This document shows positions 92-17,993 of a DNA stretch of 32,361 bases, piece after piece (positions within the stretch are counted from its first letter, which is position 1; each line of letters opens with the position of its first letter). Location: positions 1 through 32,361 of the forward strand of contig JAGMDR010000026.1 in the NCBI GenBank assembly GCA_023128595.1. Direction: 5' to 3'. The DNA comes from Planctomycetota bacterium (GTDB taxonomy: Bacteria; Planctomycetota; Phycisphaerae; Sedimentisphaerales; Anaerobacaceae). Made by a program: the position numbers and the translations under genes. Under the pieces are notes generated by a model. The model was not told the DNA's origin. It searched no databases and was given only the letters and a program-made list of their open reading frames with translations.

Positions 92-101
92 TGCCTCAGT
101 C

Positions 102-1271
102 CTAAACGCGTTCCCAGTCGTGCAGCCAGGAGTATTGCCGGGGCAGGTTGGCCCAGCGTTCGTTGGTCAAGTGTTCGAGCCAATCCTTCTCCGCAGCGGT
201 TTGTCCGAGGGGGCGCGTGTACGAGGCTCGGGCGGCGTTATCGACTTCATAGACAGTCGAGAGGCCGGGTATGACACTTGTAACTGCATCGTTCATATTG
301 AGGATGCACTGAATCGTGAGTCTTGCCAGGTCGTTGTCTTGCTTGCTGCCGACTCCCAGTTTTGGCTTGCCGTGGTTTTTGAAGAGGCTGCCGCCGAAGA
401 AGGGCTTTATCGTTATCAATCCGACGTCGTGGTCGCGCAGCGACTGGAAGACGCTCTTGTTGTCGGGTCCGTAGCCGGTTTTGACCTCCTCGATATTGTC
501 TGTTGTCGGCGGCTTGGCCTTTTCCCTGGTCTTGGCCGTGCAGGGGAAGATGAACATCTCGACCTCGGGGTACTTCTCGATAACGTGCTGTGCCCAGGGC
601 CGGCTGTGAGAAGAAATGCCCAAGTGGCGGGCCTTGCCTTGTTTGTGCAGCTTTTGGAAGGCCTCGATCATAACCTCGATGTCGGCATCCGTATTGGTTC
701 CGTCCATCTTGGCCTGGACGCGCCAGATGTCGAGGTGGTCGGTCCCGAAGTGACGCAGGCATTCTTCGACGTTGTGAAGCTGGGCCTTGACGTTGCAGTA
801 TTCATCGCGCCGGGGGCAGAGCTTGGAATCATCGGCGCCGACTATCATTTTTTCTCGTCTGCCCTTCAGGGCGGCGCCGTAGCAGAGGCATTCCTCGGCG
901 CCCGTGATGTCAACGTAATTCATCCCGCAGTCTATGGCCCCGGAGACCACCTCTGTCCGGTTCTTGGCGACGTCCTGCGGGACTTCTTCCTTTGCGAATT
1001 TTCCCCACCACCATCCTCCGCTTCGGTCCCTCCAGGGCGCCCTCCAGTGTCCGCCGAGACTGACTTCGGATATTATGAGGTTTGTCTTGCCCAGCCGGCG
1101 ATAGCCCATCTTGGGGTTGTAGTTAAGTATCTTCGATGTATTTAGCTTTCTTTGGCCGCTCCGTTTGTCGGAAGACTGTGCTTTGGCTGCCAATGCACCG
1201 GTAAGTGTCGCTGCGGCTGCGATGGAAGTATCGCGGATAAAAGTACGTCTGGAAAGTTTCTTGCCGTTCAT
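102..1271 (-). CDS. Tat-exported aldo/keto reductase-like protein with degenerate catalytic tetrad
   Basis: 389-aa protein of the aldo/keto reductase (TIM-barrel) superfamily. The N-terminus has a twin-arginine signal (SRRTFIR, residues 7-13), a hydrophobic stretch and a likely AKA|QS cleavage site near residue 31, so export by Tat is predicted. The barrel starts with the family signature YRRLGKTNL (57-65). Family alignment by eye places the catalytic Asp at D121, but the usual Tyr is E126, the Lys is D147 and the His is Q186. Only one of the four D-Y-K-H residues therefore survives. This argues against ordinary NADPH-dependent carbonyl reduction, and the cofactor and activity are unknown. 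The start is supported by AAAGGAG at 1285-1279, seven bases before the ATG. The gene appears monocistronic, with the STAS gene 325 bp upstream. It could be a non-catalytic or repurposed barrel. Confidence 0.86.
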   Translation of the reverse strand: MNGKKLSRRTFIRDTSIAAAATLTGALAAKAQSSDKRSGQRKLNTSKILNYNPKMGYRRLGKTNLIISEVSLGGHWRAPWRDRSGGWWWGKFAKEEVPQDVAKNRTEVVSGAIDCGMNYVDITGAEECLCYGAALKGRREKMIVGADDSKLCPRRDEYCNVKAQLHNVEECLRHFGTDHLDIWRVQAKMDGTNTDADIEVMIEAFQKLHKQGKARHLGISSHSRPWAQHVIEKYPEVEMFIFPCTAKTREKAKPPTTDNIEEVKTGYGPDNKSVFQSLRDHDVGLITIKPFFGGSLFKNHGKPKLGVGSKQDNDLARLTIQCILNMNDAVTSVIPGLSTVYEVDNAARASYTRPLGQTAAEKDWLEHLTNERWANLPRQYSWLHDWERV

Positions 1272-1285
1272 AGGTTTTCTCCTTT

Positions 1286-1358
1286 CCGGACAGACCTATA
1301 CTGGCCGGGTACTCAGCGAGACTGCTGAGCTTTTCGCAAAGACACTCGGTCTGTCCGG
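1286..1358 (-). promoter_or_regulatory. Structured 5' leader of the aldo/keto reductase-like gene
   Basis: A perfect 11-bp inverted repeat, CCGGACAGACC at 1286-1296 and GGTCTGTCCGG at 1348-1358, encloses a second hairpin (CTCAGC at 1312-1317, GCTGAG at 1324-1329). On the transcript the 3' arm of the outer stem directly abuts the Shine-Dalgarno AAAGGAG (1285-1279). A weak -10-like element, TATCAT on the minus strand at 1369-1364, would put the RNA start close to the 5' arm, so the leader would fold from its first bases. It may be a translational control structure or a protein operator; the sequence alone does not decide. The rest of the gap, 1359-1596, shows nothing I can support. Confidence 0.55.
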
Positions 1359-1596
1359 TAGTTATGATACGCTAATTGGCCGAGCAAATCCAGATGGCTT
1401 TTCGCGTGTTTTCAACTTGGAGCCGGCTTGCTATTCTCAACGGCGTATCACGACAAACAAGTGCGTCCGCAGAGCGGCGAGAAGGGGGCTGTCCTTGGTG
1501 CGGGGCCACGATGCCGGCTGCGCGGCGCAGAAGTGCATTTGATGCGCATTTGGCGGGCAGCGGCGTAAATCGAGGAGATAATGACTGAGTTGTCGG

Positions 1597-1935
1597 TTAA
1601 TCAGCGCTGTGGACGGCAGCTACGGCGGTGGGCTTATCGTCAGCAAACTCAAAGACCTCATCCAGGCCGGCAACCCTGAAAACGCACTTGGTTAGAACCG
1701 AGACATTGCAGAGGATGAGGCGGCGTCTGTGCTCGATCAGCAGGTTTCGCAGTATCAGGAGATTGCTGAGGCTCGAAGAGGTTATTACCTCAACCATTGA
1801 GAAGTCAATTATTATGTCGCAATCGGGATTATCACCTATGGTTTCATTGACGGCTTTGAGGTCCTCGGCGATCTGCAGCTCTCTGGACGGCAAATCAACG
1901 ACTACAAAGTCTTCCGGTGGATTTTGAATACTCAT
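1597..1935 (-). CDS. STAS-domain protein (anti-sigma factor antagonist-like)
   Basis: Small single-domain protein of 112 aa, the normal length for SpoIIAA/RsbV-type STAS proteins. The central signature runs from about residue 40: an IIIDFS beta-strand, then the segment where the family has DSSG, here TSSS (52-55), then a LSNLLILRNLL helix. Either of the central serines could be the phosphorylation site. The C-terminal half (LILCNVS, then VFRVAGLDEVFEF) fits the last strand and helix of the fold. I chose the ATG at 1935, which has AAGGTG about six bases upstream; a GTG at 1944 (115 aa) is in frame but has no good ribosome site. No anti-sigma kinase, phosphatase or sigma factor gene is nearby, so the partner is unknown. 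It may also belong to a stressosome-like or localisation system. Confidence 0.85.
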   Translation of the reverse strand: MSIQNPPEDFVVVDLPSRELQIAEDLKAVNETIGDNPDCDIIIDFSMVEVITSSSLSNLLILRNLLIEHRRRLILCNVSVLTKCVFRVAGLDEVFEFADDKPTAVAAVHSAD

Positions 1936-2323
1936 CTCTGACACCTTATTTGAACCGGTTTAATTTCTGTAAGGTTGATTATTGTATCGGAATACGTTCA
2001 GGCCAAGTTAAATAGAAAATCAAGGTCCCAAAACATTTCTGTCGAACCGGGATGGTCGGAATGTCCACCGTCATGAAATGATACGATGCTGTACGGGAAC
2101 CATCGGAACAGAACACGGGAGAATATCTGTGCATAAAGTCTGTTGGGGAATTCGAAATGAGCGAAAGCGCGTGAAGTATTATCGGTACAAGAAATGACGC
2201 CCGGCAAAGGGCAAGGATGCGTCGGTTGTGCACGAGTGACAGCAGCATAGCCCAAGAAGTGTCTTGATTTTGGGCGTTGTGCCGATAACCTCGAGAATCA
2301 CGGCCTCAGTACTGACTGAACTT
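1936..2323. other. Intergenic region upstream of the STAS gene, no gene seen
   Basis: This stretch separates the STAS gene from the nested inverted-repeat element. Short open frames occur on the minus strand (for example 1979-2248 and 1998-2255), but they overlap each other, lack ribosome sites and show no recognisable domain. It should contain the STAS promoter. A -10-like TACAAT lies on the minus strand at 1986-1981, but I see no convincing -35 partner. Confidence 0.5.
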
Positions 2324-2589
2324 TTGCAAAATTGCAGGTTAGGCGGGTGTGGCTAATTTTTCTGGCTATATAACCATATTCTTGACAAGAAGTTACTTGC
2401 TCTTGTCATTGCGAGCGAAGCGAAGCAATCTCTGTCATTCGCAAACGGGAGATTGCCACGGCCACATTCTGCGGCCTCGCAATGACAATAGCGGCCTTGT
2501 TACGCTTGTGAATGGGATTTTGACAAGGCTGAAATCCTTTGCCAGAAAATCCGGCCACACCCGGTTAGGCCTAACCTGCAATTTTGCAA
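2324..2589. repeat. 266-bp element bounded by about 43-49-bp inverted repeats
   Basis: The left arm (2324-2366) and right arm (2541-2589) are inverted copies. TTGCAAAATTGCAGGTTAGG at 2324-2343 matches 2570-2589 perfectly over 20 bp. CGGGTGTGGC at 2344-2353 matches 2554-2563, and TTTTCTGGC matches after four mismatches. The right arm has an extra 6 bp that creates a GGTTAGGCCTAACC palindrome at 2563-2576. The element encloses an 82-bp palindromic repeat (2405-2486) and has no credible gene. The layout suggests a non-autonomous MITE-like element. It starts 44 bp past the stop codon of the 2592-aa gene, so in RNA it would form a long hairpin that could also stop transcription. Confidence 0.75.
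2405..2486. repeat. Inner palindromic repeat of the GTCATTGCGAG...CTCGCAATGAC type
   Basis: The ends GTCATTGCGAG (2405-2415) and CTCGCAATGAC (2476-2486) are exact inverted copies. Internal arms GCAATCTC (2425-2432) and GAGATTGC (2449-2456) pair as well, giving a nested hairpin. Sequences of this form are interspersed repeats that I have seen in many unrelated bacterial genomes and metagenome bins, and their translation (RAKRSNL...RPRND) is a common false protein. Here it sits inside the larger inverted-repeat element at 2324-2589. Confidence 0.8.
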
Positions 2590-2632
2590 GACTCTTGTTC
2601 TTAGTGAGCGCATATACTTTTTGTGGTCCGTA

Positions 2633-5600
2633 TTAGTTCGGTGCCGGGGCGATCTTCCTTCGTAAGGATGCAGCCCGGAGCGTCTCGGCGGCGAAGATGA
2701 TTGCAAGACTGATAATCAGGCCCAATAGTCCCGCTGCCACTGTCAGGACCAGGAACACGAGGAAATAGACAATCGCGCGCTTGACCGAGATCGACGGTCT
2801 GTTGTTAGGCCATACTTTTACGATTCCAAGTGCGACGAGCAGCGCGACGACGATGGTCGCTGTCGCGTAGAGATTGTGTATAGTGGTCAGTGGGACGGCC
2901 CAGATACTCAACTGGGCCTGGCCGGCGGGGCGGGCAAAATCAAGCCTAACTTCACCTTCAGGCAGCGTCACCGGCAGCGAATAGGTGCCTTTGGCAACAT
3001 ACGGTTGTATGCCTTCGGCGGCTGTTGACGGCTTGGCACCGGGACCGGCCACAGCATCGTAGTAAACTTGCGGTTCTGCAGGCTTGGATTCACCGCCGGC
3101 TGTTACCCCCAGGGCCCTGGACCCTCTGGCCCCGGCTTCATCCCGCCCGCCGTGCATGACAACACCACCGTGTCTGCTGCTGCTCGCACGCCCACGAGCT
3201 TCCATGGTGTACTGATCTTGACTTGTGATGCCCGAGCTTGGTTGAATCGTCGCCGGCGCTTTGGCCTTGGCCTGGGGCTGACGAGCCTGACCCATTTGCT
3301 CTGGCGCCTGGAAATGCCGGCGCAATCGGTTGTCCGCCAGCTCTTCCAACTGATGTCTGAGCTGCGCCTGTTTGCGGTCGATCTGAGTGGCACTTTGTTC
3401 TGAAAGCTTATTCAATATCTCGCTCACATCGGCATTTTTGTCGAAACCGGCGACTATCAAGTCTTTCGCGCCTTTGCCGAGACCCTTAATCAGATGCTGT
3501 GTGTCCACCATCACTGCATCGGCATCAACGACCACTCCCTCAGCCGACCTCTCGAAGTCAGTGAATTCCTGCCGGAGCACCTTTAGCTGCTTTTGTGAGA
3601 CTTCGAGCTCTTTGGTCAGGCGGGCAATCTGCCGCTTTTCACCCTCGCTGATGAAGCCTGGCTTTTGCTGGAGGGCATTATTGCGGGCCACCTCGGCCAG
3701 GCCGGGGTTCGTCGCAGTCGCATTTATAAAGAAGTTCAAATCGTTACGGGTCTGCTCCTGCTGTTCCTGGATATACGCGGTATTACCCGTGATGAGTGTA
3801 ACCTGCTTTAGCCCTTGTCCGCGCAATTGTGAGCTTAGGCGCTCGTAGTCCTCATCGCTGACCCGGCGTCGGTTAGCTTCAAGGAAAGATTGTGCCTGTT
3901 CGATGTCGGTGTTGAGCTTTTCGTTGAATACGTCCCAGTTCCTTCGTGCGATAGTCTGGCCCCGGCCGGCGGAGACGGAGACCTCGCGGTAGGTTTTGTC
4001 CAGGCGTTTGAGCTGGTCGAGCTTGGCCTCGATATTGAGACTGAGCACCTCCACCGTGCCGGCCACCGGCGACATATTTCCTCCGGGACGCATATAACGG
4101 TAACCGGCGGGCAATCGCAGGGACCAGGTGGTGCGCATAACGGGGATTCCCACAATCGAAATACCGGGGGGCCTTAGTTTGGTGATGCCATTCAACGGCT
4201 CAAGCAGCGGCCCGGCCTGCTCGTCGGCAAAATAGAGGTAAACATCATACGGCAGGCCGCCCGGAGAAGTCTTGACCAGCGGTATCAGTATCTGCCCGCG
4301 GGCCGAGGCTGCGGTTGTGACGGGCTTTACCGGCTGGAAGGCGACCGTGGCGCTCCAGAGACGCAGCCCCTGCGGAACTTCGACCTGGAGGAATTGCTCA
4401 CTGCGATTCTGCAGGGCCAGTCTTGCCTGGTAACGGCACCGGCCATTGCGGTCGATGACGGTGGTCAGCGCCAGCAGGTCGACCACGGCCCGGATTCGGG
4501 CGGCCGTCTTGGCCGGGGCAAAGTCAAGGCTAAGCGACCAATCGTCCTCAAACGACTCAAAGACGTACTGGAGAGATTCGGTCATCCGGCGGGACATCAT
4601 CAGCTTTCGCTGTTCGCTCACGGCAAGATCGGCCAGCTTCGTCTTGTCCTTAACGCTTATGTCGTGGCGCGACATATTCTGCACCGCGATGATTGCCCGG
4701 TAGCCCGCCGGGGCGTCGGTCTTGAGCCGCGGAACCCGCAGCAGTTTCGTAGATGCATCGATAGGCAAAGCGAAGTTGACGGCGATATCCACTTCGCCCG
4801 TGACTTCGTTGACCAGTGCAACCTTCCAGGTCGTCCGGCCGGCGCCGGAATCGGACTTCGTTACGGTTCGCAGGGCAGGTGAATTCACCGCCACCAGCGG
4901 CGCATATTCATTAGGCAGGCTGAAACTCAGATTGTCCACCGGCGAGCCGCTGATATTGTAACGCAGCCGATAAGTGTAAACGGCGGCGGTCGGCTTGACC
5001 GCCAACCCGACGAAAGTCTCGACGCGAACGCGGGTGGGCTGCGGGCGGATGTCCAACTGCAGCGACGGATTGGGCGCCTCGTAGCGGTAGGCGAACTGCA
5101 CCGAATTGATTTGCGCCGAATCAAGCCAGTCTCTGAGCGTCCCAGGCACAACGGCCTTGAGGTTAATGCCGGCGATGGTCTTGGCCTCCAGCGAAGCGGC
5201 CACCTGCACGGCGACGCGGCCCTGCTGGTCCGGCGCAGGACCGGCGGAATCGATGTACGTGATTAGCGGCACATCAAAGGCCTCCAACGGGGCGTCTCTG
5301 CGGACAAGCACTAAGGCCACTGTCGTTTCTTGCCGGCCGCGATGAAATTTGACGTGCAGGAACCGGCGGTTATCGCTCGAGCGTTCGTAGAAGTTGTCAA
5401 CGGCAGGCCCGACGGCGCTGAGAAGCTCATAGCCGGCGGGCAGGATGAAACTCGCGCCGAAGAGCTTGCCCTGCTCGGTTGCCAACTTTGCCTGGACGAG
5501 CAGCTCGGTCCGGTCGGTATTGACGCGAACAAGCTGATCGAGATGGACTTTGGGACTGATGACGGCCCGTGAGAGTTGTACGAACAATGCGAAGGGTCTG

Positions 5601-8600
5601 TAAGGCCAGTAGTACCTGGCGACCGGGCTGGCCCTGTCGGCGGTCAAGCCCGTGCCGCGCGAATTTCCGGCGGTTCCAATAGCCGTCCTGCGACCGCCGG
5701 CAATCCGGGCCACCTTCACAGTCATACTGCCGGCGGAATGTAATGTCACCGTCCCGCTTTCGCGGGTAACATCGGCGGCCCGCACCAGAAGCAGTTGGAC
5801 GGATTTATCCGACGCCGGCAGCTCGCCCAGCCAGCGAACGGTAAGGACATATTGCTTTTCCGCCGGCCGGTGCAGACGCACTTCCACCAGATTGAACGAC
5901 TTGCCCTCGACGGTCCTTTCGCCGAGATTGCGATAATCGCGAATATTGGCGCCTTTGACTTCGGTCAGCGCGGCGCCCTTTGGCGCCAACAGGGTAAATC
6001 GGTCGTGCTCGCCCCCGGAGAAACTGTATGTAATCTTGCTTACGCCCACAATGGCCCAGTGAAAGGCGTACACATCGTGTGCCGAGGCGGCGGACAGCGT
6101 GCGGTCGGCGGCGCCGCCCCCGGCTTTGGGGAGCCAGCGCAACGTAAGGTCCCTGGTCATTCCCAGCGGAACCGTCCATTTGGTTGTACCGTTTGTTTTT
6201 TGTCGCGACGGCGCACTTTCGATTTGGTCAACCTCGAGCTCCAGGTCTTCCTGCGGCAGAACGACGTCCATCACGGCGCCGGGCAGGGGCGGCAGCGAGA
6301 ATTTCACACTGCCCCTTCGGCCGAAGTACTTGGGTTTTGCCACTGCCTTCAACTGCAACCGGCCGGATGTCCGGCCCGGCAGCATCAAAACCATGCCTTT
6401 GGCGCCGGCCTGCTTACTCTGTGTCTGTGGGAGGCTGTGCAATCGGGCAGGCTTGCCGTCGATGGTCGCCTCGGTCACCGCCAGGCCGGATATCGGCATA
6501 GGAAGAACCACCCAATCCCTGCCGTAAGTTTTGATATCGGCGGTCAGAACCACGTTCAGCCGCTCAGCTTCGACTGTCACGCTGTATTGAACAGCAGCCA
6601 GGGAGACATCGGTCCCCGGTCGCGGCCCGTCAATAGTATCTTCCGGATGCGCCTGGTTCCATAACTTGACAAAACGCGTGTATGGAATAAGGACCTTGTT
6701 GGAGTCTTCAGCCGCTGTGGGGTCTCCATCGTAGGGAATAATAAGAGGCTCTGATGCACTGTCGGCCAATTGAGCCATCGGTTTGGCCTGTGGTTGTGCA
6801 ACAGGCTGCTGGTTTTTCGCCGGCGCGGTTTCGGTCCGGGCGAGTTGCGCAGGCTCGGCCGCCTGGGCCGAGCAGCCAAAGCACAGTATAGAGACAAGCA
6901 GCACAGCAACCACTGCAGAAACGGGACTTACCGTGCCGGCCGGATGCAGCCTGGAGCATAACCACCGGATAAGAGCAACCAGCACATAAAGGGGGATGAG
7001 GCAAACGCCCGCTGTGAAGGCGCCGTTGGCGAAGTACGTCATCTCGGGCCGCCAGAGGGCCAGCAGAGACGCAACCGCCAAGACGGCGATAATCAGGATT
7101 GCCTTTGTTTTGCCCGGCTGCCGGACCAGTGCGATCCCGATAGCCGCTATCAGGACGAGTCCCACGGCCCAGCAGGAGGACATCCAGGCCGTTCTTGTCA
7201 GGCCGATGGTCAATTCTCCCGTGCCCAGGCCGGCAAACATGGCCCGCCGCCCGGCACCGGCGGTGGGCACCAAATCCACCGGCAATGTGAAACGCCCCCG
7301 CGCAACGAGCCTGACTCCCAAATCCCCCAGTACGGGCGGCTTAGCCACCTCGCGTTTGGCCGACCGACGACGCAGGTATGATTCCATCGGTTCGGCCGTC
7401 TTGGCCTCTTCCTTTTCAGCCGGCATTTCTGCCTTCGTGCGTATATCTTCTCCAAGGTCATACTCATACGAGACCGCGCCACCACCGGCAAAGTCCACCT
7501 TCTTGCCAAGGCGAGCTTCGGTGAACACAGGGACGAACAACAGGCCTGGAAATACGTTTTCGTGCAGATAGCGATAGAGTTGTAGATAGGCCGGGGCCGG
7601 TTGTCGCAAGTCGTGCGTCTGCATTTTTGTTTGCTGTGTCGTTATGCGATAGCCCGGCGGCGGGACGACAGTCCAGCTCATCTGGTTGATTTCCACGCCG
7701 GGAAGCTCAATGCCGCCCAGGTCCAGGCGTTCAAGATCGACCTGCGCCTCCCGGCAAGCATAAACGACCTTTACCGGGACCGGCTTTCCCAACTGCCCGA
7801 GGGTCACCTGGTAATCGCCGCCGGCGCTGCGCTGGGGCTTGACCGGCCTGCCGCTGACGCTCAGGGACCAAAGCTCTGCGCCGTCGGGCAGGCGGATAGT
7901 TAGAAACTGCCGACCGGCATTTGCAACCCGAAACGCCGCTTCGGTTCGCTGACCGCCCTTGACGTCGAGATATGTCGTCAACCGCACCGAAACCGCCAAT
8001 GCCGACGGAATCTCGTAGCTCTCGTGAACGTCGGTCTCGAGCATCAACGCCGTCGCCGAGCCGGTCGGCGTTGTGGCGGCATCCAGGCGGAACGCCCACA
8101 AGATGCGAGCGGCCTGGGCCGGAAGCGGCGGAAGGTCCACCGCATCAATCTCTTTGGCCCCGTCGGCTTTAATCTTAAGCGCCAGCTCCTCGCTGGCCTG
8201 GACCGCCAATTGCTCACTTATCTCGCCCCCGCATACCGGTCGCACCAGCGGTACATCGAAGCTCTTGTCAACGACGGGACGCTCATAATGTATATCGATT
8301 ACGACATTACCCAGACTGGAGTGATCGAGGTTCAACAGCCAGAGATTATAGCGCTGTGCCAATTCCTCCGAGAGGGGAATGGTTTTCTCATCCGGCTGTA
8401 CTATACTTTTCGAGTTGATGGGCACTGTTGTCGAAGCGATCTTGAATTCCTGTCCGAGTGACTTATCGGCGAGCAAATAGAGCCTTTTTGCAGAGGCCCT
8501 GGAGATAGCGTAGGTGATTCGCCAATCGGCAGAGAACTCGCGGGGCCGCACGGTAATCAGGGCGACGGCGTCGGCGGATTTTCGGGGTCGGCGCCGGGAG

Positions 8601-10411
8601 ACAAGCAGCTCAATGTTACCCTCTACAGCCGCGTTGTGACTGTAGGCATGCTGAACGTTTCCCGCCATGCCCAGTGACGCCATCCGGCCGACGGGCACCG
8701 GTTCGAGCTGGTCCGGCACCTTGTTCGGCTCTACGTCCAGGTCGCCCTCGGCCCAGAGAGAGACGTGGCCTGAAACAGTTTCGCCCTGTGATTGAATAAG
8801 CGGCACCGTGATGCTGCGTTGGGCGGCATCGCTGGGCCAGCGCCAGTCGGAGGGCACGTGCTGGGTTACGATAGTAACGTTCGCCGTTTTCTCCGGCTGG
8901 ATCGGTCGGGGCAATTCGATTTTCAGCAGGCGGCGGTCCGGCTGCTCTTCGATACGATATTCGAAGCCCGTTTGTTTTTTGTCAACCAGCACGGTCTTGA
9001 CCTGCCATTGACGGGCCGAGCCGCGGAGCACAAAAGACAGCTCGAAAAGCTCACGCTCAACAGCGGTTACCTCGAAATCGCCGGTCAAGGTTACCTGCTG
9101 CGGTGAAACGACGAGCTTTTGCTGCTCCTTAATGCTTCGCCTCAGCTCGACATCCACGAGCTCCAGATTCACCGACCAGTTATCGCCCCAGTGAAAATAC
9201 AAAGGCCCCGTCGAGCCGCTGACCAGACCGGGCACGGAGACCGCCGACAAAGCATCTTCTCGCCGGGCGCCGACGACCTTCTGGCCGCGGACACCAAGGG
9301 CCTCGTCCGTATTTACCATCAGGTAGCCTCGCTGGAAAGCAGCATCAACGAGGAGTATGCGCGGCGCGTCCCAGCTCTGGCCGGTGCGAACGGCGGTAGC
9401 CTTGATATGCAACGCCGTCGTGCCGACCTTGCCCGAGCGCAGACGCACGCTGAGCTTTTTGAGTCCTTTGGGCTCCTCTGCCGCATCAACAGACCATCTG
9501 ACGAGGCTCGGAGAGGTGACCTCGGTTACGGTCCAAGCCTGCGGGAGCTCGAATTGGAGCTGCCTTACGCCGCGGCGCAACACCTGCACGGTATAAAGAC
9601 AGCTCAATACCTGGTGCGACCTGGTCAAATTCACGGTGGCAGCCGACTCGCCCAGCAGAATCACGCGATCGTCTTCCTGACGACCGTTTCCGAGCATAAC
9701 CACCGTCAACTTGTCCTTTCCGCCGATGGTAAGCTCAACGCTGGTAAGGTCGGCCTGCTTGTCGTAAGAGGTCGCAGAAGCGGGCACGGTCGCGTGAATT
9801 TCCAGGTCGCCGGCGGCAGCGAGCTTTACTCGCCCGGCCACGGCCTGCGGCAGGGATATGCTGAACTGCGTGCCCCCGCTGGCAAGCTCGTTGACCTTCG
9901 TTGTGCCCGCGATTTCGAGCTGGTGCGTGCCTTTGGCCTGTACAATCAGCGTCAACCTTCCCTTTTTGTCGTAGCCCAACGGCGCGGGCGTACCGTCCAG
10001 AATCACGCGGCTCAGCCCTATCCCGGCAAAACCCAGCGGGACCGCCACCGGGCCTTTGCCGATGGATACCACCTCCAGTTTGCCGGTCAAAGTCAGCTCT
10101 TCGCCTGAGACTTTTCCGGTGTACTCGGCCCGCTTGACCTGCCCGAGCTCGAGGGTGTCGGCCTCTCGCTCGTTCTGCTCTGCTGCGGCAAGCAGCTTTT
10201 CGAATTCGGCTCGGTCCATCAGGACCGCTTTATCGGCCGGCTCAATCAAATGGACCAGGTCTTGATAGGGAACATACAGATTAGGTTTGAACTCATCGGC
10301 CCGGGCCGTGGAAATCAAGTACCCCGCCGCGACCACCGCAATCATCAACGTCGCTATCCTGCGGTATCCGGCAAAACGCGGTTCTCTCAGCCATTGTACT
10401 AAGTATCTCAT
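2633..10411 (-). CDS. Giant (2592 aa) secreted, membrane-anchored protein of unknown function, two fused modules
   Basis: Function not recognised. An N-terminal signal or anchor (about 18-38) is followed by a VPY motif (47-49) and a long beta-rich region with a TEVT motif (about 297) and a W-x4-PPGY motif (about 910). Then come three to four membrane spans (about 1075-1180), the last ending like a second signal peptide (SAQAAE). A second module follows: IPY (about 1243), TEVKGANI (about 1481), an LWS-PVKP motif (about 2013) and W-x4-PAGY (about 2095). It ends in a charged coiled-coil-like region (about 2150-2380), a Gly/Ala/Arg-rich linker and two or three C-terminal spans (about 2515-2580). 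The motif order and spacing match the 1112-aa protein encoded just upstream, so I read it as a fusion of two paralogous units. The gap to that gene is four bases, and AGGAG immediately before its TAG stop serves this start. Probably an envelope or surface-structure protein. Confidence 0.85.
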   Translation of the reverse strand: MRYLVQWLREPRFAGYRRIATLMIAVVAAGYLISTARADEFKPNLYVPYQDLVHLIEPADKAVLMDRAEFEKLLAAAEQNEREADTLELGQVKRAEYTGKVSGEELTLTGKLEVVSIGKGPVAVPLGFAGIGLSRVILDGTPAPLGYDKKGRLTLIVQAKGTHQLEIAGTTKVNELASGGTQFSISLPQAVAGRVKLAAAGDLEIHATVPASATSYDKQADLTSVELTIGGKDKLTVVMLGNGRQEDDRVILLGESAATVNLTRSHQVLSCLYTVQVLRRGVRQLQFELPQAWTVTEVTSPSLVRWSVDAAEEPKGLKKLSVRLRSGKVGTTALHIKATAVRTGQSWDAPRILLVDAAFQRGYLMVNTDEALGVRGQKVVGARREDALSAVSVPGLVSGSTGPLYFHWGDNWSVNLELVDVELRRSIKEQQKLVVSPQQVTLTGDFEVTAVERELFELSFVLRGSARQWQVKTVLVDKKQTGFEYRIEEQPDRRLLKIELPRPIQPEKTANVTIVTQHVPSDWRWPSDAAQRSITVPLIQSQGETVSGHVSLWAEGDLDVEPNKVPDQLEPVPVGRMASLGMAGNVQHAYSHNAAVEGNIELLVSRRRPRKSADAVALITVRPREFSADWRITYAISRASAKRLYLLADKSLGQEFKIASTTVPINSKSIVQPDEKTIPLSEELAQRYNLWLLNLDHSSLGNVVIDIHYERPVVDKSFDVPLVRPVCGGEISEQLAVQASEELALKIKADGAKEIDAVDLPPLPAQAARILWAFRLDAATTPTGSATALMLETDVHESYEIPSALAVSVRLTTYLDVKGGQRTEAAFRVANAGRQFLTIRLPDGAELWSLSVSGRPVKPQRSAGGDYQVTLGQLGKPVPVKVVYACREAQVDLERLDLGGIELPGVEINQMSWTVVPPPGYRITTQQTKMQTHDLRQPAPAYLQLYRYLHENVFPGLLFVPVFTEARLGKKVDFAGGGAVSYEYDLGEDIRTKAEMPAEKEEAKTAEPMESYLRRRSAKREVAKPPVLGDLGVRLVARGRFTLPVDLVPTAGAGRRAMFAGLGTGELTIGLTRTAWMSSCWAVGLVLIAAIGIALVRQPGKTKAILIIAVLAVASLLALWRPEMTYFANGAFTAGVCLIPLYVLVALIRWLCSRLHPAGTVSPVSAVVAVLLVSILCFGCSAQAAEPAQLARTETAPAKNQQPVAQPQAKPMAQLADSASEPLIIPYDGDPTAAEDSNKVLIPYTRFVKLWNQAHPEDTIDGPRPGTDVSLAAVQYSVTVEAERLNVVLTADIKTYGRDWVVLPMPISGLAVTEATIDGKPARLHSLPQTQSKQAGAKGMVLMLPGRTSGRLQLKAVAKPKYFGRRGSVKFSLPPLPGAVMDVVLPQEDLELEVDQIESAPSRQKTNGTTKWTVPLGMTRDLTLRWLPKAGGGAADRTLSAASAHDVYAFHWAIVGVSKITYSFSGGEHDRFTLLAPKGAALTEVKGANIRDYRNLGERTVEGKSFNLVEVRLHRPAEKQYVLTVRWLGELPASDKSVQLLLVRAADVTRESGTVTLHSAGSMTVKVARIAGGRRTAIGTAGNSRGTGLTADRASPVARYYWPYRPFALFVQLSRAVISPKVHLDQLVRVNTDRTELLVQAKLATEQGKLFGASFILPAGYELLSAVGPAVDNFYERSSDNRRFLHVKFHRGRQETTVALVLVRRDAPLEAFDVPLITYIDSAGPAPDQQGRVAVQVAASLEAKTIAGINLKAVVPGTLRDWLDSAQINSVQFAYRYEAPNPSLQLDIRPQPTRVRVETFVGLAVKPTAAVYTYRLRYNISGSPVDNLSFSLPNEYAPLVAVNSPALRTVTKSDSGAGRTTWKVALVNEVTGEVDIAVNFALPIDASTKLLRVPRLKTDAPAGYRAIIAVQNMSRHDISVKDKTKLADLAVSEQRKLMMSRRMTESLQYVFESFEDDWSLSLDFAPAKTAARIRAVVDLLALTTVIDRNGRCRYQARLALQNRSEQFLQVEVPQGLRLWSATVAFQPVKPVTTAASARGQILIPLVKTSPGGLPYDVYLYFADEQAGPLLEPLNGITKLRPPGISIVGIPVMRTTWSLRLPAGYRYMRPGGNMSPVAGTVEVLSLNIEAKLDQLKRLDKTYREVSVSAGRGQTIARRNWDVFNEKLNTDIEQAQSFLEANRRRVSDEDYERLSSQLRGQGLKQVTLITGNTAYIQEQQEQTRNDLNFFINATATNPGLAEVARNNALQQKPGFISEGEKRQIARLTKELEVSQKQLKVLRQEFTDFERSAEGVVVDADAVMVDTQHLIKGLGKGAKDLIVAGFDKNADVSEILNKLSEQSATQIDRKQAQLRHQLEELADNRLRRHFQAPEQMGQARQPQAKAKAPATIQPSSGITSQDQYTMEARGRASSSRHGGVVMHGGRDEAGARGSRALGVTAGGESKPAEPQVYYDAVAGPGAKPSTAAEGIQPYVAKGTYSLPVTLPEGEVRLDFARPAGQAQLSIWAVPLTTIHNLYATATIVVALLVALGIVKVWPNNRPSISVKRAIVYFLVFLVLTVAAGLLGLIISLAIIFAAETLRAASLRRKIAPAPN

Positions 10412-10415
10412 AGCG

Positions 10416-13400
10416 CTACTCCTGGTCCTGTTTTGACTGCTCCTGCTGCTTTTGGTCAGGAGGCTGCGGTTTTTGAGCGGTTTTGTTCTTGGGCTGCCGT
10501 TCTTTGGCCTTTTTGGCTTTCTGCGAAGCGGCCTGTCGCCGAGCAGCTAAACCCTCGCGCAATTGCGGAAGCGTCTTAAATGCCCATTGCCCCATCCATA
10601 ACAACAGCACAAGAATCCCGGCAAATAGGCCCACCTGCATCACTTTATCGACTAACAGCGGCAAATACAGGTGAATGATGCCGGCGATCAGTCCCGCCGC
10701 CAATATCACGAGAACACGATGGAAGCCGCCTAACTTGAGCATCAGGGCCCCGGCCCCAATGATCAGCACCCAGATAACTACGCTGAAAACCTCCTTGCCA
10801 ACCAGCAGAACCGACAATTCGCCCGGCGCGCCCTGCCGGACAAAATGAAGCTCTTTGCCCTGACCGGAGAGCTTGAAGTCAACCGAAGCGCCCTGTGCTT
10901 GCCGTAAGGTTCTCAACATCTCCAAGCCTTGGCCGGGCTCGAGCCGGGCAAAGACGCGGTCGTACCCGAGGAAACTGTAGTCCTCCGGAATCCACAGACG
11001 CCAGAGCGTCTGCTGGACCGGGATATCCCTGGGCAAAGCGGGTGCAACCAAATTGCGGGCCGAGACATCCTTGAGACCATAGGAAATTTCCAGGACAAAC
11101 TTCGAGACCTGTCCGGCCGAGGGGGGCAGGCGAACGATGCGCTCGTCCGGCTTGATGCCTATCTCTGTCGCAGCCTCATTACCATTCAAGAGCACCGCGG
11201 TAAGTTCGGCGTTCTCAGGCAGCGTGATGGACAGCCTGTCGCCCTGGCTGGTCGCCAGCAAGTAGGTGGCGTGCGTGTTGAGCATCCCGTCGCGGGCCAA
11301 GACCTGCTCGATAATCGCGCCGCTGACAATAGTGGTAAAGACGGTCGCTTCGGTTTGTGCAACCACCGGCAGTGACAGCGCAAAGACAGGTCCATCATAT
11401 TTGAAAGCCAGTGTAGCAAGCCTGCGATGAGGCTCATAAGGCAGGTCGGCGGGGCTGCCGGGGTCGGCGTCTTTCAGGTTCTTGCTGACCGGCCGGCCGA
11501 TGGCCAGGGTCTCGGCTTTTGCTATGGCGATGTGGCCGTTCTGGTCGGAAAGCCGTCCGGCTGCAAGGATCGGCTCGGCCTCGACAATCGCGGGCTCTCC
11601 CACACTGCCGGCCTGGAAGGGCCGACGCGTCCGGACCTTGAGCTGATAGCTGTCGGTTACCTTCGATTGCAGAACGATCTTGTAATATGCCCAATCGATG
11701 TCATCTGCTCCGGGGTCGTTGGGCTCGCCCCGCTGATCGGCGGGCAGCTCATCTATGCGCGGCTTTTCCTTGATGTTCGCGCCGTCTATATCTACACCGG
11801 CGTAAGCCAATTCAGCCGGCATCTTCAAATAGAATGTATCGATCGGGGCGTAGCGAATCCGGTATTGTATTACCGCTTCCTGCTCAATCGAGCCGGACTG
11901 AATATTCAGCAGCCGATGTACCGTAGCGGAGATCTGCACAGGCTTGGAATCGATCTCAAACTTTCCACCTGCCGGTTTGTCACGGTCGATAGCCCGAAAC
12001 TCGAACGCCATCGCCGGTGACAGCCCGGCTATCTTGGCCCACTTCTGGGCCTGTTTTAGTGGAATGGCCTGCAGTTGCTGCAAATCCTCGACCTGGGCCT
12101 GCAGCTCGTTGGGCAAAAGCAGCATTAATTGGCCCTGGTACAACTGTAAATCGTTGGCATCGGCCAACGGCAGCGCAAAATCAACCGGGTCCTCGGGATC
12201 CGCTCTCTCGGCGCGGGCAACCAATGTCAGGTCGAACTCGCCGGCCTTTTCTCTTTTAAGGAGTATGTGGAGTATGCGGGTGCGGCCGCTGCCTTTTAGC
12301 TGATAATCATCCACCAGGTCGCGCGGCTCAACCGATTCGAGCTTCCACGGTTCGGGCAGGTTCATGTTCAGCTCGAAAATACCGGTACGCTCAACCTTGT
12401 AATGAATTTTGCCGCGCAGCTCAAGCCGATCAATGTCGGCGCCCAACATCCAAAGCTGATTGACCGTGATGCGGGGCGAGGTGGTTTCAATCGCGATTGT
12501 ACCGCTGTAATCAGACGTAATAAACCGGTAGGCCGTTACGCCCGGCCGGCTCTGAAGGTTCTTCGGCAATTGGCCCGTGTCCACGCGCGCGAGGTTCTTG
12601 ACGTCCTCAAGGTGGACCGAGCGCCGCGGGGAGTACGTAATTCCGATCAGCCCGCTTCGCCTGAGCACCTGCTCGGTAGTTATCGGCGACAATGGAATCT
12701 TTGCCTGCGCCTCCTGGAGAAAACGCTCGGTTTTGATTGTGAGCGTATATTTGCCTTTCGCAGGCGAGAAAAGTCCTACTTTCAGCAGTTGTCCTTTTTT
12801 GTCGCCGGCCGTCTTCTCTGCCCGTATTATCTCCCATTTGGCAATGTTCGCGCCGGTAACATCGGTTATGCGAAACTCGCCGGGCAATTTTACGGTGAAC
12901 TCATCAACGCCTCCGCGATGAATACTGTAGTCGAGCCTGGTTTCATAACTGATGAGGGCTTCGCCAATGTTAATATGCTGGAATTGTTCACAGATAATGA
13001 CCGCCTCAAGCTCCGCGGCGGCCTCGGTTTTTGGCTTCCAGCTCAAGCGCACCTGCTGGGCCGAGCCGAGAAAAGCCTGAAGTTTAGTGGCCTTGGCCCC
13101 CTCAACTTCCACCTGTGATGTCGTCGCCGCCAGCATCGGTTGTACGTCCACCTTGAGATTCTCTTCGGGGATCAGCAGATCGAGGGTAGTTATTGCAGCC
13201 GAGGGTATGCGGAAACTCAGGATGGCCAATCCGGGCTGGGTTTCGAGCTGGCGAACAAAGTCCAGCGCGAGCACGTAGCGCCCCTTGCCCTTGGTCACAA
13301 AGATGTACTGACCTTTCTCCACCCGCAGCAGTGGCACAACATTGGCATCTTCGGTTGCGGCATGAGCGACTGCGACCTCGCCCAGGCCGATGGGCACCTG

Positions 13401-13754
13401 GACCCAGCCGTCGCTTAGGATGTCAATCGTAAGCTCCAGCCGCAAGGTGGCGAGCTCACCCTCGACTTTGCCGTCGAACCTCGCCGTGCTTACGAGATAT
13501 TCAAACGGGGCTTCGGACACACCGGCCGGCTTGCCCTGGGCGGCCCGCCAGAGCTTCTGGAACTCCTTGTAGGGTAGAAACACACCCTGATCGGCCTTCT
13601 CAAAAACCCCCTTGAGCTCCTCATAAGGCACATACACCTTGGTTGGTGTGTTAGTTTCTTTCTTCTGGTCACCCTCGGCGGCGATGCCTGCAGAGACATG
13701 AGCGAAACTAAGACCGCACAAAACGGCAATAATGGTAAAACGTACACTGTTCAT
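10416..13754 (-). CDS. Large (1112 aa) secreted beta-rich protein with C-terminal membrane bundle, paralogue of the giant protein
   Basis: Function not recognised. It has an N-terminal signal peptide (about 5-26), then the motif KVYVPYEEL (VPY at 42-44) followed by a second LPY and an EFQKLW helix. A long region of predicted beta-sandwich character contains TDVTGANI (about 295) and W-x4-PEDY (about 915). Three hydrophobic spans follow (about 985-1058), and the tail is rich in K, Q and P and presumably cytoplasmic. The same landmarks recur at nearly the same residue numbers in the first half of the downstream 2592-aa protein. AAGGAGA at 13768-13762, seven bases before the ATG, fixes the start. 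It is first of a two-gene unit with a 287-bp leader region upstream. The topology suggests an envelope-spanning or surface-scaffold role, but this is inferred from architecture only. Confidence 0.85.
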   Translation of the reverse strand: MNSVRFTIIAVLCGLSFAHVSAGIAAEGDQKKETNTPTKVYVPYEELKGVFEKADQGVFLPYKEFQKLWRAAQGKPAGVSEAPFEYLVSTARFDGKVEGELATLRLELTIDILSDGWVQVPIGLGEVAVAHAATEDANVVPLLRVEKGQYIFVTKGKGRYVLALDFVRQLETQPGLAILSFRIPSAAITTLDLLIPEENLKVDVQPMLAATTSQVEVEGAKATKLQAFLGSAQQVRLSWKPKTEAAAELEAVIICEQFQHINIGEALISYETRLDYSIHRGGVDEFTVKLPGEFRITDVTGANIAKWEIIRAEKTAGDKKGQLLKVGLFSPAKGKYTLTIKTERFLQEAQAKIPLSPITTEQVLRRSGLIGITYSPRRSVHLEDVKNLARVDTGQLPKNLQSRPGVTAYRFITSDYSGTIAIETTSPRITVNQLWMLGADIDRLELRGKIHYKVERTGIFELNMNLPEPWKLESVEPRDLVDDYQLKGSGRTRILHILLKREKAGEFDLTLVARAERADPEDPVDFALPLADANDLQLYQGQLMLLLPNELQAQVEDLQQLQAIPLKQAQKWAKIAGLSPAMAFEFRAIDRDKPAGGKFEIDSKPVQISATVHRLLNIQSGSIEQEAVIQYRIRYAPIDTFYLKMPAELAYAGVDIDGANIKEKPRIDELPADQRGEPNDPGADDIDWAYYKIVLQSKVTDSYQLKVRTRRPFQAGSVGEPAIVEAEPILAAGRLSDQNGHIAIAKAETLAIGRPVSKNLKDADPGSPADLPYEPHRRLATLAFKYDGPVFALSLPVVAQTEATVFTTIVSGAIIEQVLARDGMLNTHATYLLATSQGDRLSITLPENAELTAVLLNGNEAATEIGIKPDERIVRLPPSAGQVSKFVLEISYGLKDVSARNLVAPALPRDIPVQQTLWRLWIPEDYSFLGYDRVFARLEPGQGLEMLRTLRQAQGASVDFKLSGQGKELHFVRQGAPGELSVLLVGKEVFSVVIWVLIIGAGALMLKLGGFHRVLVILAAGLIAGIIHLYLPLLVDKVMQVGLFAGILVLLLWMGQWAFKTLPQLREGLAARRQAASQKAKKAKERQPKNKTAQKPQPPDQKQQEQSKQDQE

Positions 13755-14041: not shown

Positions 14042-15601
14042 TTAGTCTTTGAATGCCAGCGCTCCGGTCGGGCACGCTTCTACGCACCGGCTCGCGGCGT
14101 TTTGGAGACCTTCGGCTATTGAACGGTCGAACGGCACGGCCACTCTGACATCGAAGCCCCGGCCGATAAAGGTCAGCCCGAGTTTTTCACCGGCTTCGGC
14201 GGCAATCTGAATGCAAAGGCCGCAGTCAATACACTTGCCCGATTCATAAATCAGCTCCGGGTGTTGCAGTTGCTGAGCAAACAAGCGTCTCGGTCCCTGG
14301 TATCGGGTGGCTCGGGCGTCATATTCCTTTGCATACCGCCTCAATTTGCAGCTTTGAGGCTTACGGCAGTCACAGTGCAGACAACGGGCCGCTTCGTCGC
14401 GCGCCTGCTCGTCGGAAAAGCCGCCGTCTTGGGCTGTCGGCGTTACACGATGTGAGTGGCCGGCGTTGGCAAGAAAGACTTCGATCTCGCCGTCTTTTAG
14501 CCTGCCGATGCGAGTGTTGAAGGGCCTGGCCGGCCCGGTTACCGGCTGGCCGGACAGATATTGGCCTATCGAGGCAGCGGCTTCTTTGCCGTCAGCGACG
14601 GCTCGAACCGTGAGCTTGCGCCTGCGTACAGCGTCACCGCCGGCGAACACGCCGGGCAGATTCGTTTGGTAAGTTCCCGCATCCACAGCAATTCCCTTCT
14701 GGCCCGTCTCGAGGCCCATTGCCTCGGCGTCACCGGGCTTTAGTCCTCCAACCGCCAGAAAAACCGCATCGAAATCCTTTCGCAAATCGGCCATCGACAG
14801 CGCTGCACCAATTGTCGTTTGCCCCCGGAATTCAACGCCCAATTTTATAATCAAAGCTATTTCTTTGTCGAGCACCTCGCGGGGCAGCTCATCGGCGGGA
14901 ACTGCATACCGCAGCATTCCGCCGGGCTCTTCGTGGTCGTCGAAGAGCGTGCAATCGAAGCCATTCTGCTGCAAATAATAAGCAGCCGCTAATCCTGCCG
15001 GACCGGCCCCGACAATAGCGACGCGCTTGCCTCGCTTCGGCTTGCACTGCGGCGAATAGGGCAATGCAGATTCCAGGTCAACATCGGCAACGTAACGCTT
15101 CAACAAACAGATTGAAACAGCATCGTCGAATGCCGCCCGCCTGCAGGACCGCTCGCAGGGTTTCGGACAAATCCGCCCCAACACCGCGGGCAGCGCAATA
15201 TCCTTCTTGACCGTGGCAATCGCATCACGGAGCTTCCCGGCTGCAATCTGCCGAATCATCAGGGGAATGTTCATCCGGGCCGGGCACGTCGTCTGACACG
15301 GCCCCATACAGTCGCCCAGGTGGTCGCTCAAGAGCAGCTCCAAAGCCGCCTTTCTTGCCTCGCGGACCTGGTCCGAATTAGTCCGGACCCGCATACCATC
15401 TCCGGCAATAGTCCCGCAAGCCGGCACGAGCGCGCTTTGACCCTCGACCTTGACCGCACAAACCATACAACTCGTTGATGGCTTATGCCCTTTTAGAAAA
15501 CACATCGCGGGTATCTCGATCCCCAGTTTCCCGGCGGCATCAAGGATGGTTGCGTTATCCGCCACCTCAACTTCACGATTGTCGATTGTCAGTCTTGGCA
15601 T
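14042..15601 (-). CDS. [2Fe-2S]-GltD-like flavoprotein oxidoreductase lacking the NAD(P)H domain, with C-terminal ferredoxin domain
   Basis: 519-aa cytoplasmic Fe-S flavoprotein. Residues 1-80 are a NuoG/HydA-type [2Fe-2S] domain with perfect spacing, C34-x10-C45-x2-C48-x13-C62. A His and Cys cluster (H94, C98, C102, C106) leads into the GltD/dihydropyrimidine-dehydrogenase-type Fe-S helical domain with CPKPCERSC. The FAD motif GAGPAGLAAAYYL starts near 195 and the closing FAGGD is near 314. Canonical GltD proteins have a second Rossmann fold, for NADPH, between these; here only about 120 residues separate them and no second GxGxxG/A is present. The C-terminus adds CIDCGLC (about 454) and CVEACP (about 507). 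It is encoded 24 bp after the NuoEF fusion and so probably takes electrons from it. A GTG at 15613 is an alternative start. It resembles the third subunit of electron-bifurcating (Stn/Bfu-type) complexes but should not itself bind NADPH. Confidence 0.85.
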   Translation of the reverse strand: MPRLTIDNREVEVADNATILDAAGKLGIEIPAMCFLKGHKPSTSCMVCAVKVEGQSALVPACGTIAGDGMRVRTNSDQVREARKAALELLLSDHLGDCMGPCQTTCPARMNIPLMIRQIAAGKLRDAIATVKKDIALPAVLGRICPKPCERSCRRAAFDDAVSICLLKRYVADVDLESALPYSPQCKPKRGKRVAIVGAGPAGLAAAYYLQQNGFDCTLFDDHEEPGGMLRYAVPADELPREVLDKEIALIIKLGVEFRGQTTIGAALSMADLRKDFDAVFLAVGGLKPGDAEAMGLETGQKGIAVDAGTYQTNLPGVFAGGDAVRRRKLTVRAVADGKEAAASIGQYLSGQPVTGPARPFNTRIGRLKDGEIEVFLANAGHSHRVTPTAQDGGFSDEQARDEAARCLHCDCRKPQSCKLRRYAKEYDARATRYQGPRRLFAQQLQHPELIYESGKCIDCGLCIQIAAEAGEKLGLTFIGRGFDVRVAVPFDRSIAEGLQNAASRCVEACPTGALAFKD

Positions 15602-15625
15602 ATTAGGTTTCACTTTGGCGCATTG

Positions 15626-17977
15626 TCACTCAACTTTAATTGCCTCTGACGGACATAGGCTCTTGCAGGTCCCGCAGCGAATACATTTCTCGGTGTCGAT
15701 TTCGTGCTTTTGATACGGCTTGCTCTCGATGGCATCAGCGGGGCAGTGCTGAGCGCAGAGAGTGCAGCCGATGCAGTCGTCCGTCACCGAATATGTAATA
15801 AGAGCTTTGCATCTGCCGGCGGGACAGCGTTTGTCAAGATGAGCTTCGTACTCGCTGCGGAAGTACTCGATGGTGGAAAGGACCGGATTTGGCGCTGTTT
15901 TGCCCAGCCCACAGAGACTCGAATCGCGAATCATTTGAGCCAAGTGCTCGAGCTCGTCAATATCCGTCTTCTTGCCTTCGCCGGCGCACAGCCTTTCAAG
16001 AATATCGAGCATGCGCCGGGTCCCTATGCGACAGAAGGTGCATTTTCCGCAGGACTGATTTTGCGTAAATTCGATGAAGTACCTTGCGATATCGACCATA
16101 CAATCCGACTCATCGAGCACGACCATACCGCCGGAGCCCATCATCGCTCCGACATCTTTTAGAGACTCGTAGTCAACAGGCGTATGCGCCAGCGTGGCCG
16201 GGACGCATCCGCCGGAAGGCCCTCCTATCTGCACGGCTTTGAAGCGCAGCCCCCCTGCAATCCCCCCGCCGATGTCCTCCACGATCTGGTGCATTGAAAT
16301 ACCCATCGGCACCTCGATAAGTCCTCCTCGTGCGACCTTTCCGGCCAGGGCAAAAACCTTTGTCCCCTTGCTGGTGTCGGTTCCAAGGCGTGCGAATGCC
16401 TCTGCACCGTTTCGGATAATCCAAGGAACGATGGAGTATGTCTCGACGTTGCCGATAAGCGTTGGCTTTGCCCAGAGTCCTTTTTGGGCCGGGTACGGAG
16501 GCCGCAGCCGGGGCATACCCCGGCGTCCTTCAATGCTGGCGATGAGCGCGGTTTCTTCGCCGCATACGAACGCCCCGGCGCCGGCCACGATCCTCAGGTT
16601 CAGCGAAAAGCCGCCGGCCAAAATATTGTCGCCAAGGAACCCGCGTTCGCGACAACTGCTAATCGCTTGTCTGACGCGCTTGATTGCCAGGGGGTATTCT
16701 GCGCGAATATAGAGGTATCCTTCATCGGCGCCGACGGCATAAGCCGCTATGGCCATGCCTTCAAGAATCCGATATGGATAAGACTCCATCAGCATGCGGT
16801 CCATAAATGCCCCCGGGTCGCCCTCGTCTCCGTTGCAAATCAAGTATTTCTTTTCGGACTTGCTGCTGCTGACGGCGGACCATTTTCGATGTGTCTGGTA
16901 GCCGGCGCCTCCCCTGCCTCGCAGTCCGCTCTTTTCAATCTCTGCAATGATTTGCTCGGGCGCCAGCTCCTTGGCGCACTTCCGCAGGGCCTCAAATCCA
17001 TCGTTGCTCAAATACTCATCAAGGTCAACCGGGTCAATGCATCCGCAGTGCTCGGTAGCGATATGTACTTGTCTGTCCAGAAAGCCCGCGACCGGCCGAT
17101 CCCGCGCACCTACCGAATAACGTGTGACGGGCTCCCAGGCTTTGTCGGTAAGTATCTTATCCAGCATTGTGGATATGGCATTCTTGATTTTCGGCGTAAT
17201 TTTTTTCGGCTTGAAATGCCTAAGTACAATAGCTCTGGCATGCTCGGGGTGGATCCTTGCGTAACGAAACGAGGTCCCGCCGGCCATAGTCACTTCTACA
17301 ATGGGGGCCAGGAAGGACATCCCCGGACAGCCGACACTTTTGACCACGACCTGAGCAGAAGTTTCTTTAACAGCCTTTTTTAGTGCCTCATATACTTTGG
17401 CGCTGCCGCCGGCGACACAACTGGAACAGAGGCATATACGGATTTCGCCGAGTTGCTTGCCGGCTTCTATATGCTCCGGCGCCTCCTTTCGCTCAGTGCG
17501 AGCTTTTTCCTGCTCGATAAAATCCCTCAATACCGCCGGAACCCGCTCGCTGCTCAGGTACCCGTAAGTAATATCAGCAATCTGTATGGCAGGGGCAAGC
17601 ATACAGCATCCCAGACACGCCACTTTCTCAACGGTAAACATCTTCTCCGGGTCAGTATCGTCTCCGGCCGGGATATGGAGGTAGCGCTGAAAGGCGTCGT
17701 AAACCTGTTCGCCGCCCCTAACGTGGCAGGCCGTCCCGATGCAGACTCGAACCATATAACGCCCGGCCGGGTGATGTCTGAACTGGCTGTAAAAAGTCGA
17801 GACGCCGGCAATCGCCCCGGGAGTAATCTCGCTCACCTCGCAGACCCGCTCGAGGGCCTCTTTGGGCAGATACCCAAACTCGCCCTGAACGGCCTGGAGT
17901 ATCTCAAGCACCCTCTCGGCTCCGGTGCCGATTCTCTCAACGGCCCTGTCAACAGATGTCAAATCCAAGTCACTCAT
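15626..17977 (-). CDS. Fused NuoE-NuoF diaphorase (HydC-HydB/Bfu-type NADH-oxidising Fe-S flavoprotein)
   Basis: 783-aa fusion. Residues about 10-155 are NuoE, a thioredoxin-like [2Fe-2S] domain with CIGTAC and CLGCC. Residues about 172-255 are a second thioredoxin-like domain with CLCSSC, but the second half reads C-x3-S (GCPGMS), so one usual ligand is Ser. The NuoF core has the FMN/NADH loops GLRGRGGAGYQ (about 350), NGDEGDPGAFMDR and GAGAFVCGEETALIASIEG (about 461), then the N3-type [4Fe-4S] site SCGKCTFC...CGLG (about 640-690). The C-terminus has two ferredoxin motifs, CIGCTLCAQHCP and CIRCGTCKSLCP. This layout matches HydB/BfuB of bifurcating hydrogenases and transhydrogenases with the NuoE-like subunit fused on. 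No hydrogenase or formate dehydrogenase subunit is nearby. No clear Shine-Dalgarno is seen, and the gap from the upstream gene is 16 bp. Confidence 0.92.
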   Translation of the reverse strand: MSDLDLTSVDRAVERIGTGAERVLEILQAVQGEFGYLPKEALERVCEVSEITPGAIAGVSTFYSQFRHHPAGRYMVRVCIGTACHVRGGEQVYDAFQRYLHIPAGDDTDPEKMFTVEKVACLGCCMLAPAIQIADITYGYLSSERVPAVLRDFIEQEKARTERKEAPEHIEAGKQLGEIRICLCSSCVAGGSAKVYEALKKAVKETSAQVVVKSVGCPGMSFLAPIVEVTMAGGTSFRYARIHPEHARAIVLRHFKPKKITPKIKNAISTMLDKILTDKAWEPVTRYSVGARDRPVAGFLDRQVHIATEHCGCIDPVDLDEYLSNDGFEALRKCAKELAPEQIIAEIEKSGLRGRGGAGYQTHRKWSAVSSSKSEKKYLICNGDEGDPGAFMDRMLMESYPYRILEGMAIAAYAVGADEGYLYIRAEYPLAIKRVRQAISSCRERGFLGDNILAGGFSLNLRIVAGAGAFVCGEETALIASIEGRRGMPRLRPPYPAQKGLWAKPTLIGNVETYSIVPWIIRNGAEAFARLGTDTSKGTKVFALAGKVARGGLIEVPMGISMHQIVEDIGGGIAGGLRFKAVQIGGPSGGCVPATLAHTPVDYESLKDVGAMMGSGGMVVLDESDCMVDIARYFIEFTQNQSCGKCTFCRIGTRRMLDILERLCAGEGKKTDIDELEHLAQMIRDSSLCGLGKTAPNPVLSTIEYFRSEYEAHLDKRCPAGRCKALITYSVTDDCIGCTLCAQHCPADAIESKPYQKHEIDTEKCIRCGTCKSLCPSEAIKVE

Positions 17978-17993
17978 AAGAGATTAAGCGTTA

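Follow-up and report, generated by a model that had tools for sequence, protein, structure and literature searches.

Two adjacent genes in a 32,361-nucleotide stretch of a planctomycete genome (hereafter the window; contig C179 of a 4.3-Mb assembly that is 80% complete) encode three large homologous modules, designated S, H1, and H2. The S gene (10416..13754) encodes a single-module protein of 1112 aa that is homologous to both halves of a 2592-aa giant, the product of a fused H1-H2 gene (2633..10411). Both genes, and all features given below for them, are on the minus strand, and the gap between the genes is 4 nt. When S was used as a tblastn query against its own genome, H2 was matched at an E-value of 1.4e-22 and H1 at 4e-16. 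Profile-profile comparison of the modules by hhalign, a check proposed in the first-pass annotation, was significant for every pair (S-H1, E = 5e-17 over 831 columns; S-H2, 2.7e-24 over 838; H1-H2, 1.3e-22 over 816), and deeper profiles of 25–30 diverse sequences gave an E-value of 8.7e-87 for S-H2. The three modules are homologous and can be aligned colinearly along about 830 columns, with similarity far above chance. The three-fold architecture described in that annotation is thus confirmed, with its landmark motifs found 1–3 residues from where it had placed them: VPY at 42, TDVTGANI at 297, and W-x4-PEDY at 918 in S; VPY at 47, TEVTSPSL at 296, and W-x4-PPGY at 913 in H1; and IPY at 1242, TEVKGANI at 1483, and W-x4-PAGY at 2096 in H2.

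S begins with a hydrophobic signal peptide (about residues 1–26, 13677..13754), followed by a doublet of PY motifs (residues 40–70, 13545..13637) that reads IYVPYxxLxxVFEKEGxGVFLPYxEFxKLW in an alignment of 30 sequences and is a hallmark of the family. A predicted periplasmic array of about five beta-saddle domains (residues 86–940, 10935..13499), recognized from the AlphaFold2 (AF2) model, Foldseek, and self-profile repeats, is followed by a bundle of three membrane helices (residues 987–1059, 10578..10796; hydrophobic segments and AF2 model) and a Lys-rich tail. The giant has an N-terminal hydrophobic signal segment (residues 18–38, 10298..10360); module H1 (residues 38–950, 7562..10300), delimited by profile comparison and the tree; the H1 membrane bundle (residues 1075–1152, 6956..7189), seen as hydrophobic segments; a fourth, signal-like hydrophobic segment (residues 1157–1186, 6854..6943), assigned from hydrophobicity and a survey of junctions; and module H2 (residues 1215–2130, 4022..6769), delimited by profile comparison and the model. 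After H2, the AF2 model contains a predicted helical, coiled-coil-like region (residues 2119–2373, 3293..4057), partly of low confidence, and C-terminal membrane helices (residues 2508–2587, 2651..2890), which also appear as hydrophobic segments. By hydrophobicity, the segments run from 988 to 1059 in S and, in the giant, from 1078 to 1148, 1164 to 1182, and 2510 to 2583. An N-terminal PY doublet, a five-saddle module, and a C-terminal transmembrane bundle were found as family traits by alignment, models, and self-profile comparison.

The AF2 model of S, built from 30 sequences (pLDDT 79.5, pTM 0.44), consists entirely of beta structure between about residues 86 and 940 and then continues into membrane helices. 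Comparison of the S profile with itself revealed repeats offset by about 165, 342, and 523 residues (E = 3e-35, 1e-23, and 2e-4), indicating about five units of approximately 175 residues; H2 repeats at offsets of about 181 and 356. The H2 model (pLDDT 74.9) contains the same kind of beta array as that of S, together with a long stretch of helix and, at the C-terminus, membrane helices, and by homology to S and H2 the saddle fold should also be shared by H1. The modules proposed as the repeat in the first-pass annotation are therefore real, but the models, Foldseek, and self-profiles predict a smaller true repeat unit, a beta-saddle domain of about 175 residues, about five per module and about 15 in all. 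Invariant columns are Tyr, Pro, Gly, Phe, and one Asp in S, and two Pro and one Arg in H2. Because they are mainly Gly, Pro, and aromatic residues, a structural role is favored over catalysis. No HExxH motif is present in S or the giant, and none of the modules had a Pfam, NCBIfam, or sequence-level PDB match. One relative of H2 matches the C-terminal domain of squalene-hopene cyclase (1.4e-8), which suggests an inserted domain in that protein.

Foldseek matched the models to ribophorin I, integrin alpha legs, ITIH1, LTA4H and other N-terminal domains of M1 peptidases (M1-N), and PIG-T. Since whole-chain TM-scores are low (0.06–0.14 by query), only likeness at the level of domain folds is secure. 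In ribophorin I/Ost1, too, tandem M1-N-like beta-saddles are attached to a membrane anchor and face the lumen (E = 1e-9 and 1e-8), but the match covers only about 430–500 columns with a low TM-score, and the S/H1/H2 array is far longer and comes with several membrane helices. Among 30 S proteins, no match to the ribophorin I Pfam family was found at E<=0.01, nor was there a PDB sequence match. Integrin alpha legs and ITIH1 are likewise chains of beta-sandwiches (E = 2e-9 and 4e-5), and a protein with a VWA domain and its MIDAS motif adjoins the cassette in some lineages; unlike integrins, S/H1/H2 lack a beta-propeller head, the VWA domain is on a separate protein, and the resemblance is of fold only. 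The N-terminal saddle of LTA4H and the M1 aminopeptidases has the same domain fold over about 200–230 residues, whereas the catalytic domain and any Pfam M1 match are missing from S/H1/H2. Domains of ECF sigma/zf-HC2 anti-sigma pairs and of the YfbK family occur in proteins neighboring the cassette in two groups; S, H1, and H2 themselves contain none of them, and the window lacks the pair. The modules belong to none of the families tested and would at most work like the luminal or ectodomain arrays of ribophorin I or integrin legs.

The layout of S, which runs from a signal peptide through the beta array to three hydrophobic segments and ends in a Lys-rich tail, is consistent with an array outside and a tail inside. 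The first-pass annotation had regarded these as surface proteins that might span the envelope. An envelope-spanning structure is plausible, but surface placement gained no support, because the C-terminal membrane helices and Lys-rich tail suggest an inner-membrane anchor with a periplasmic array. An extra hydrophobic segment is present right before H2 in most fused junctions. On average it is preceded by 2.4 Lys/Arg and followed by 1.0, compared with 1.9 and 2.1 for the preceding transmembrane segments, and an [AVS]xA motif is found close to its end in 38 of 52 junctions, compared with 74 of 158 preceding segments. The internal signal-like segment that had been suspected at the junction is upheld by this hydrophobicity and charge polarity; it is real and would act as a fourth membrane pass. 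Placing H2 in the periplasm requires such a pass.

In an IQ-TREE phylogeny of 43 modules, S, H1, H2, and two further types, D1 and D2, each formed one clade with 100% support, and the S, H1, and H2 clades each span Planctomycetota and Verrucomicrobiota. A tree of 187 modules required 8 label changes, compared with a minimum possible of 5 and a shuffled mean of 96; the misplaced rows were modules of locus L101, which are labelled by position and whose order according to the tree is rearranged to H2-S-H1. S, H1, and H2 thus represent three paralogues of ancient origin; H1 and H2 are not closer to each other than to S, the H1-H2 pair being no closer than S-H2. The giant is therefore not a private tandem duplicate, although duplication and fusion, also put forward in the first-pass annotation, did occur. 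The tree is unrooted and does not give the order of duplication. D1 and D2 are the halves of a divergent protein of about 2200 aa (D type) and are sisters of each other (support 100/99), indicating a second duplication plus fusion, independent of H1-H2.

Among 73 non-redundant loci compared, all three modules are present in 49, and the remaining loci of the three-module type are apparently truncated where a contig ends or the assembly has a gap. The commonest arrangement is S followed by fused H1-H2. Real split versions were found in L069 (1128/1237/1138 aa), L113 (Verrucomicrobiales), and L101, and L072 is a probable fourth. In the H2 tree the four split loci are scattered, two of them next to fused sisters, and four changes are required, at least three of which are forced by well-supported branches. 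In the simplest reading, the H1-H2 fusion is probably ancestral, so that the split orthologues, which the first-pass annotation had proposed to look for, look like secondary fissions rather than the unfused ancestor; as the H2 tree is a FastTree phylogeny with long branches, ancestral fusion is likely rather than proven. The internal signal already in place would make fission easy. Two further candidate splits (L125 and L137) were rejected because their membrane segments go on in another frame, and they are probably frameshifted fused genes; the frame break in L125 also adjoins an unread base. An apparent 3688-aa triple fusion in L100 was an artefact of overlapping frames. Separately, L102 carries a fourth module (1597-5457), an extra copy that is 69% identical to that locus's own H1, arose recently, and is specific to its lineage. 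In genome G016 the S gene is split between two widely separated sites (L034 and L035) with runs of N, which probably reflects an error in scaffolding.

A profile of all modules matched 115 of 392 genomes drawn evenly from Planctomycetota (about 30%); single S or giant queries matched only 6 of 41 close genomes, including that of the window. A scan of named genomes yielded 45 loci, mostly from Planctomycetota, including Sedimentisphaerales and the complete genome CP036272; by the titles of their metagenome bins, two others are from Verrucomicrobia/Verrucomicrobiales and one from Victivallales. The S protein of L129 (Sedimentisphaerales) is 83% identical to that of the window. S and H1 modules of the window's clade group with those of L086 (a Thermoguttaceae bin) and L087 with 98–100% bootstrap, while genomes sampled from the remaining families of the order to which the window belongs gave no match. 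The cassette of this clade may have been transferred horizontally as a whole.

Only two neighbor families recur broadly across the 73 loci: an ECF sigma factor and a VWA/YfbK anti-sigma-like protein composed of zf-HC2 (in most copies), one transmembrane segment, VWA, and YfbK_C. The VWA protein is present in 14 of the 73 loci; where at least 4 kb of upstream sequence is available, it occurs in 11 of 52 loci and is missing from 41. The two genes lie directly upstream of the cassette and are tightly spaced (e.g., L083). VWA-linked loci form two groups, the D type and three-module loci whose S proteins cluster among those listed. The MIDAS motif is intact in all 14 proteins, and a transmembrane segment precedes VWA in 11, the other three having no readable N-terminus or transmembrane segment. 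In the window, ECF sigma and zf-HC2 anti-sigma genes are not adjacent to the cassette, and YfbK_C was found neither in its genome (80% complete) nor in the close relatives G009, G016, and G017; the regulator is thus not needed everywhere. In L036, whose genome belongs to the window's own family, a VWA/YfbK protein with Secretin_N and GspD N0 domains (1-3888) lies upstream of a D-type giant.

Other genes of the window were also noted. A redox block (14042-21669), which the cassette follows, encodes a GltD-like/ferredoxin fusion, a NuoE-NuoF-ferredoxin fusion, a PQQ propeller, and NapH-like and ferredoxin proteins, and is possibly an NADH-dependent or bifurcating redox unit; its order is kept in L127 and L129, but the block was not recovered from the other close relatives examined. 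A STAS-domain (anti-sigma-antagonist-like) protein is encoded downstream of the giant (1597-1944), and was rejected as a regulatory partner because it has no match in the Sedimentisphaerales locus L127. A LolD-like ABC ATPase gene adjoins that of a 1105-aa FtsX/LolC-type permease (24581-28584). Across the loci, ABC ATPases shared by a few of them were rejected as partners, being scattered and non-adjacent.

Based on these observations, we propose that S and H1-H2 form an inner-membrane-anchored periplasmic scaffold, linked in some lineages to an ECF sigma factor, a reading to which we give about an even chance of being right. The two genes would be a self-contained unit whose three paralogous products, two of which are joined in one chain, lie in the periplasm and are anchored to the inner membrane. 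Each module would extend about five M1-N/ribophorin-like saddles into the periplasm from an anchor of about three helices, and the signal sequence retained in the giant, as a fourth pass, would return the H2 chain across the membrane. The fusion would set H1 and H2 at 1:1, and the three modules probably come together as a single scaffold or tether of the planctomycete envelope, without enzymatic activity. In two groups the unit apparently shares an operon with genes for the ECF sigma factor and for a transmembrane anti-sigma-like protein whose VWA domain is predicted to be periplasmic; given this linkage, transcription in those groups may respond to the integrity or load of the scaffold. The homology, the three old paralogues, the pattern of fusion and fission, the predicted saddle-array fold, and the gene linkage come directly from computation; the topology, assembly as a single complex, scaffold role, and signalling we infer from them.

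It is doubtful, though conceivable, that the giant is instead a precursor polyprotein from which signal peptidase releases H1 and H2 by cutting the internal signal, the fusion serving co-expression only. The signal-like polarity, the [AVS]xA motif, and the split genes that work with ordinary signal peptides would fit such cleavage, which would part H1 from H2; yet the motif excess is modest and an uncut signal anchor yields the identical topology. Less probable is that S/H1/H2 are the sensor arm of an envelope-stress pathway, a periplasmic receptor controlling the VWA anti-sigma and ECF sigma factors. The tight upstream spacing and broad recurrence of these genes, and the intact MIDAS of a VWA domain predicted to be periplasmic, are consistent with this idea, but with most cassettes lacking the pair and YfbK_C missing from four genomes, sensing would not be general. 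Ribophorin I is an oligosaccharyltransferase subunit and PIG-T serves GPI transamidase. As the former is the best or near-best fold match, the latter was also matched, and the C-termini carry membrane helices, the modules could be luminal-type scaffold subunits of a membrane-embedded enzyme, such as one that modifies envelope glycans or lipoproteins; this we consider improbable, because the proteins have no sequence relationship and no recurrent enzyme gene, including glycosyltransferases, was found beside the cassette in the 73 loci. More speculative still, and very improbable in our view, is a bacterial integrin-like machine in which the mechanical or ligand state of saddle legs is read by the MIDAS-containing VWA anti-sigma protein, switching the ECF regulon, with the window's lineage having retained the legs without the VWA reader.

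Neither the S/H1/H2 family nor planctomycete VWA anti-sigma factors turned up in our literature search. These very large, ancient proteins of Planctomycetota and Verrucomicrobiota have no family model in the libraries searched. They have repeatedly been duplicated, fused, and split around an internal signal, a clear case of how a giant membrane protein grows. The planctomycete envelope has been the subject of long debate, and a conserved predicted periplasmic array, together with an ECF switch in some lineages, would provide a concrete genetic way into it.
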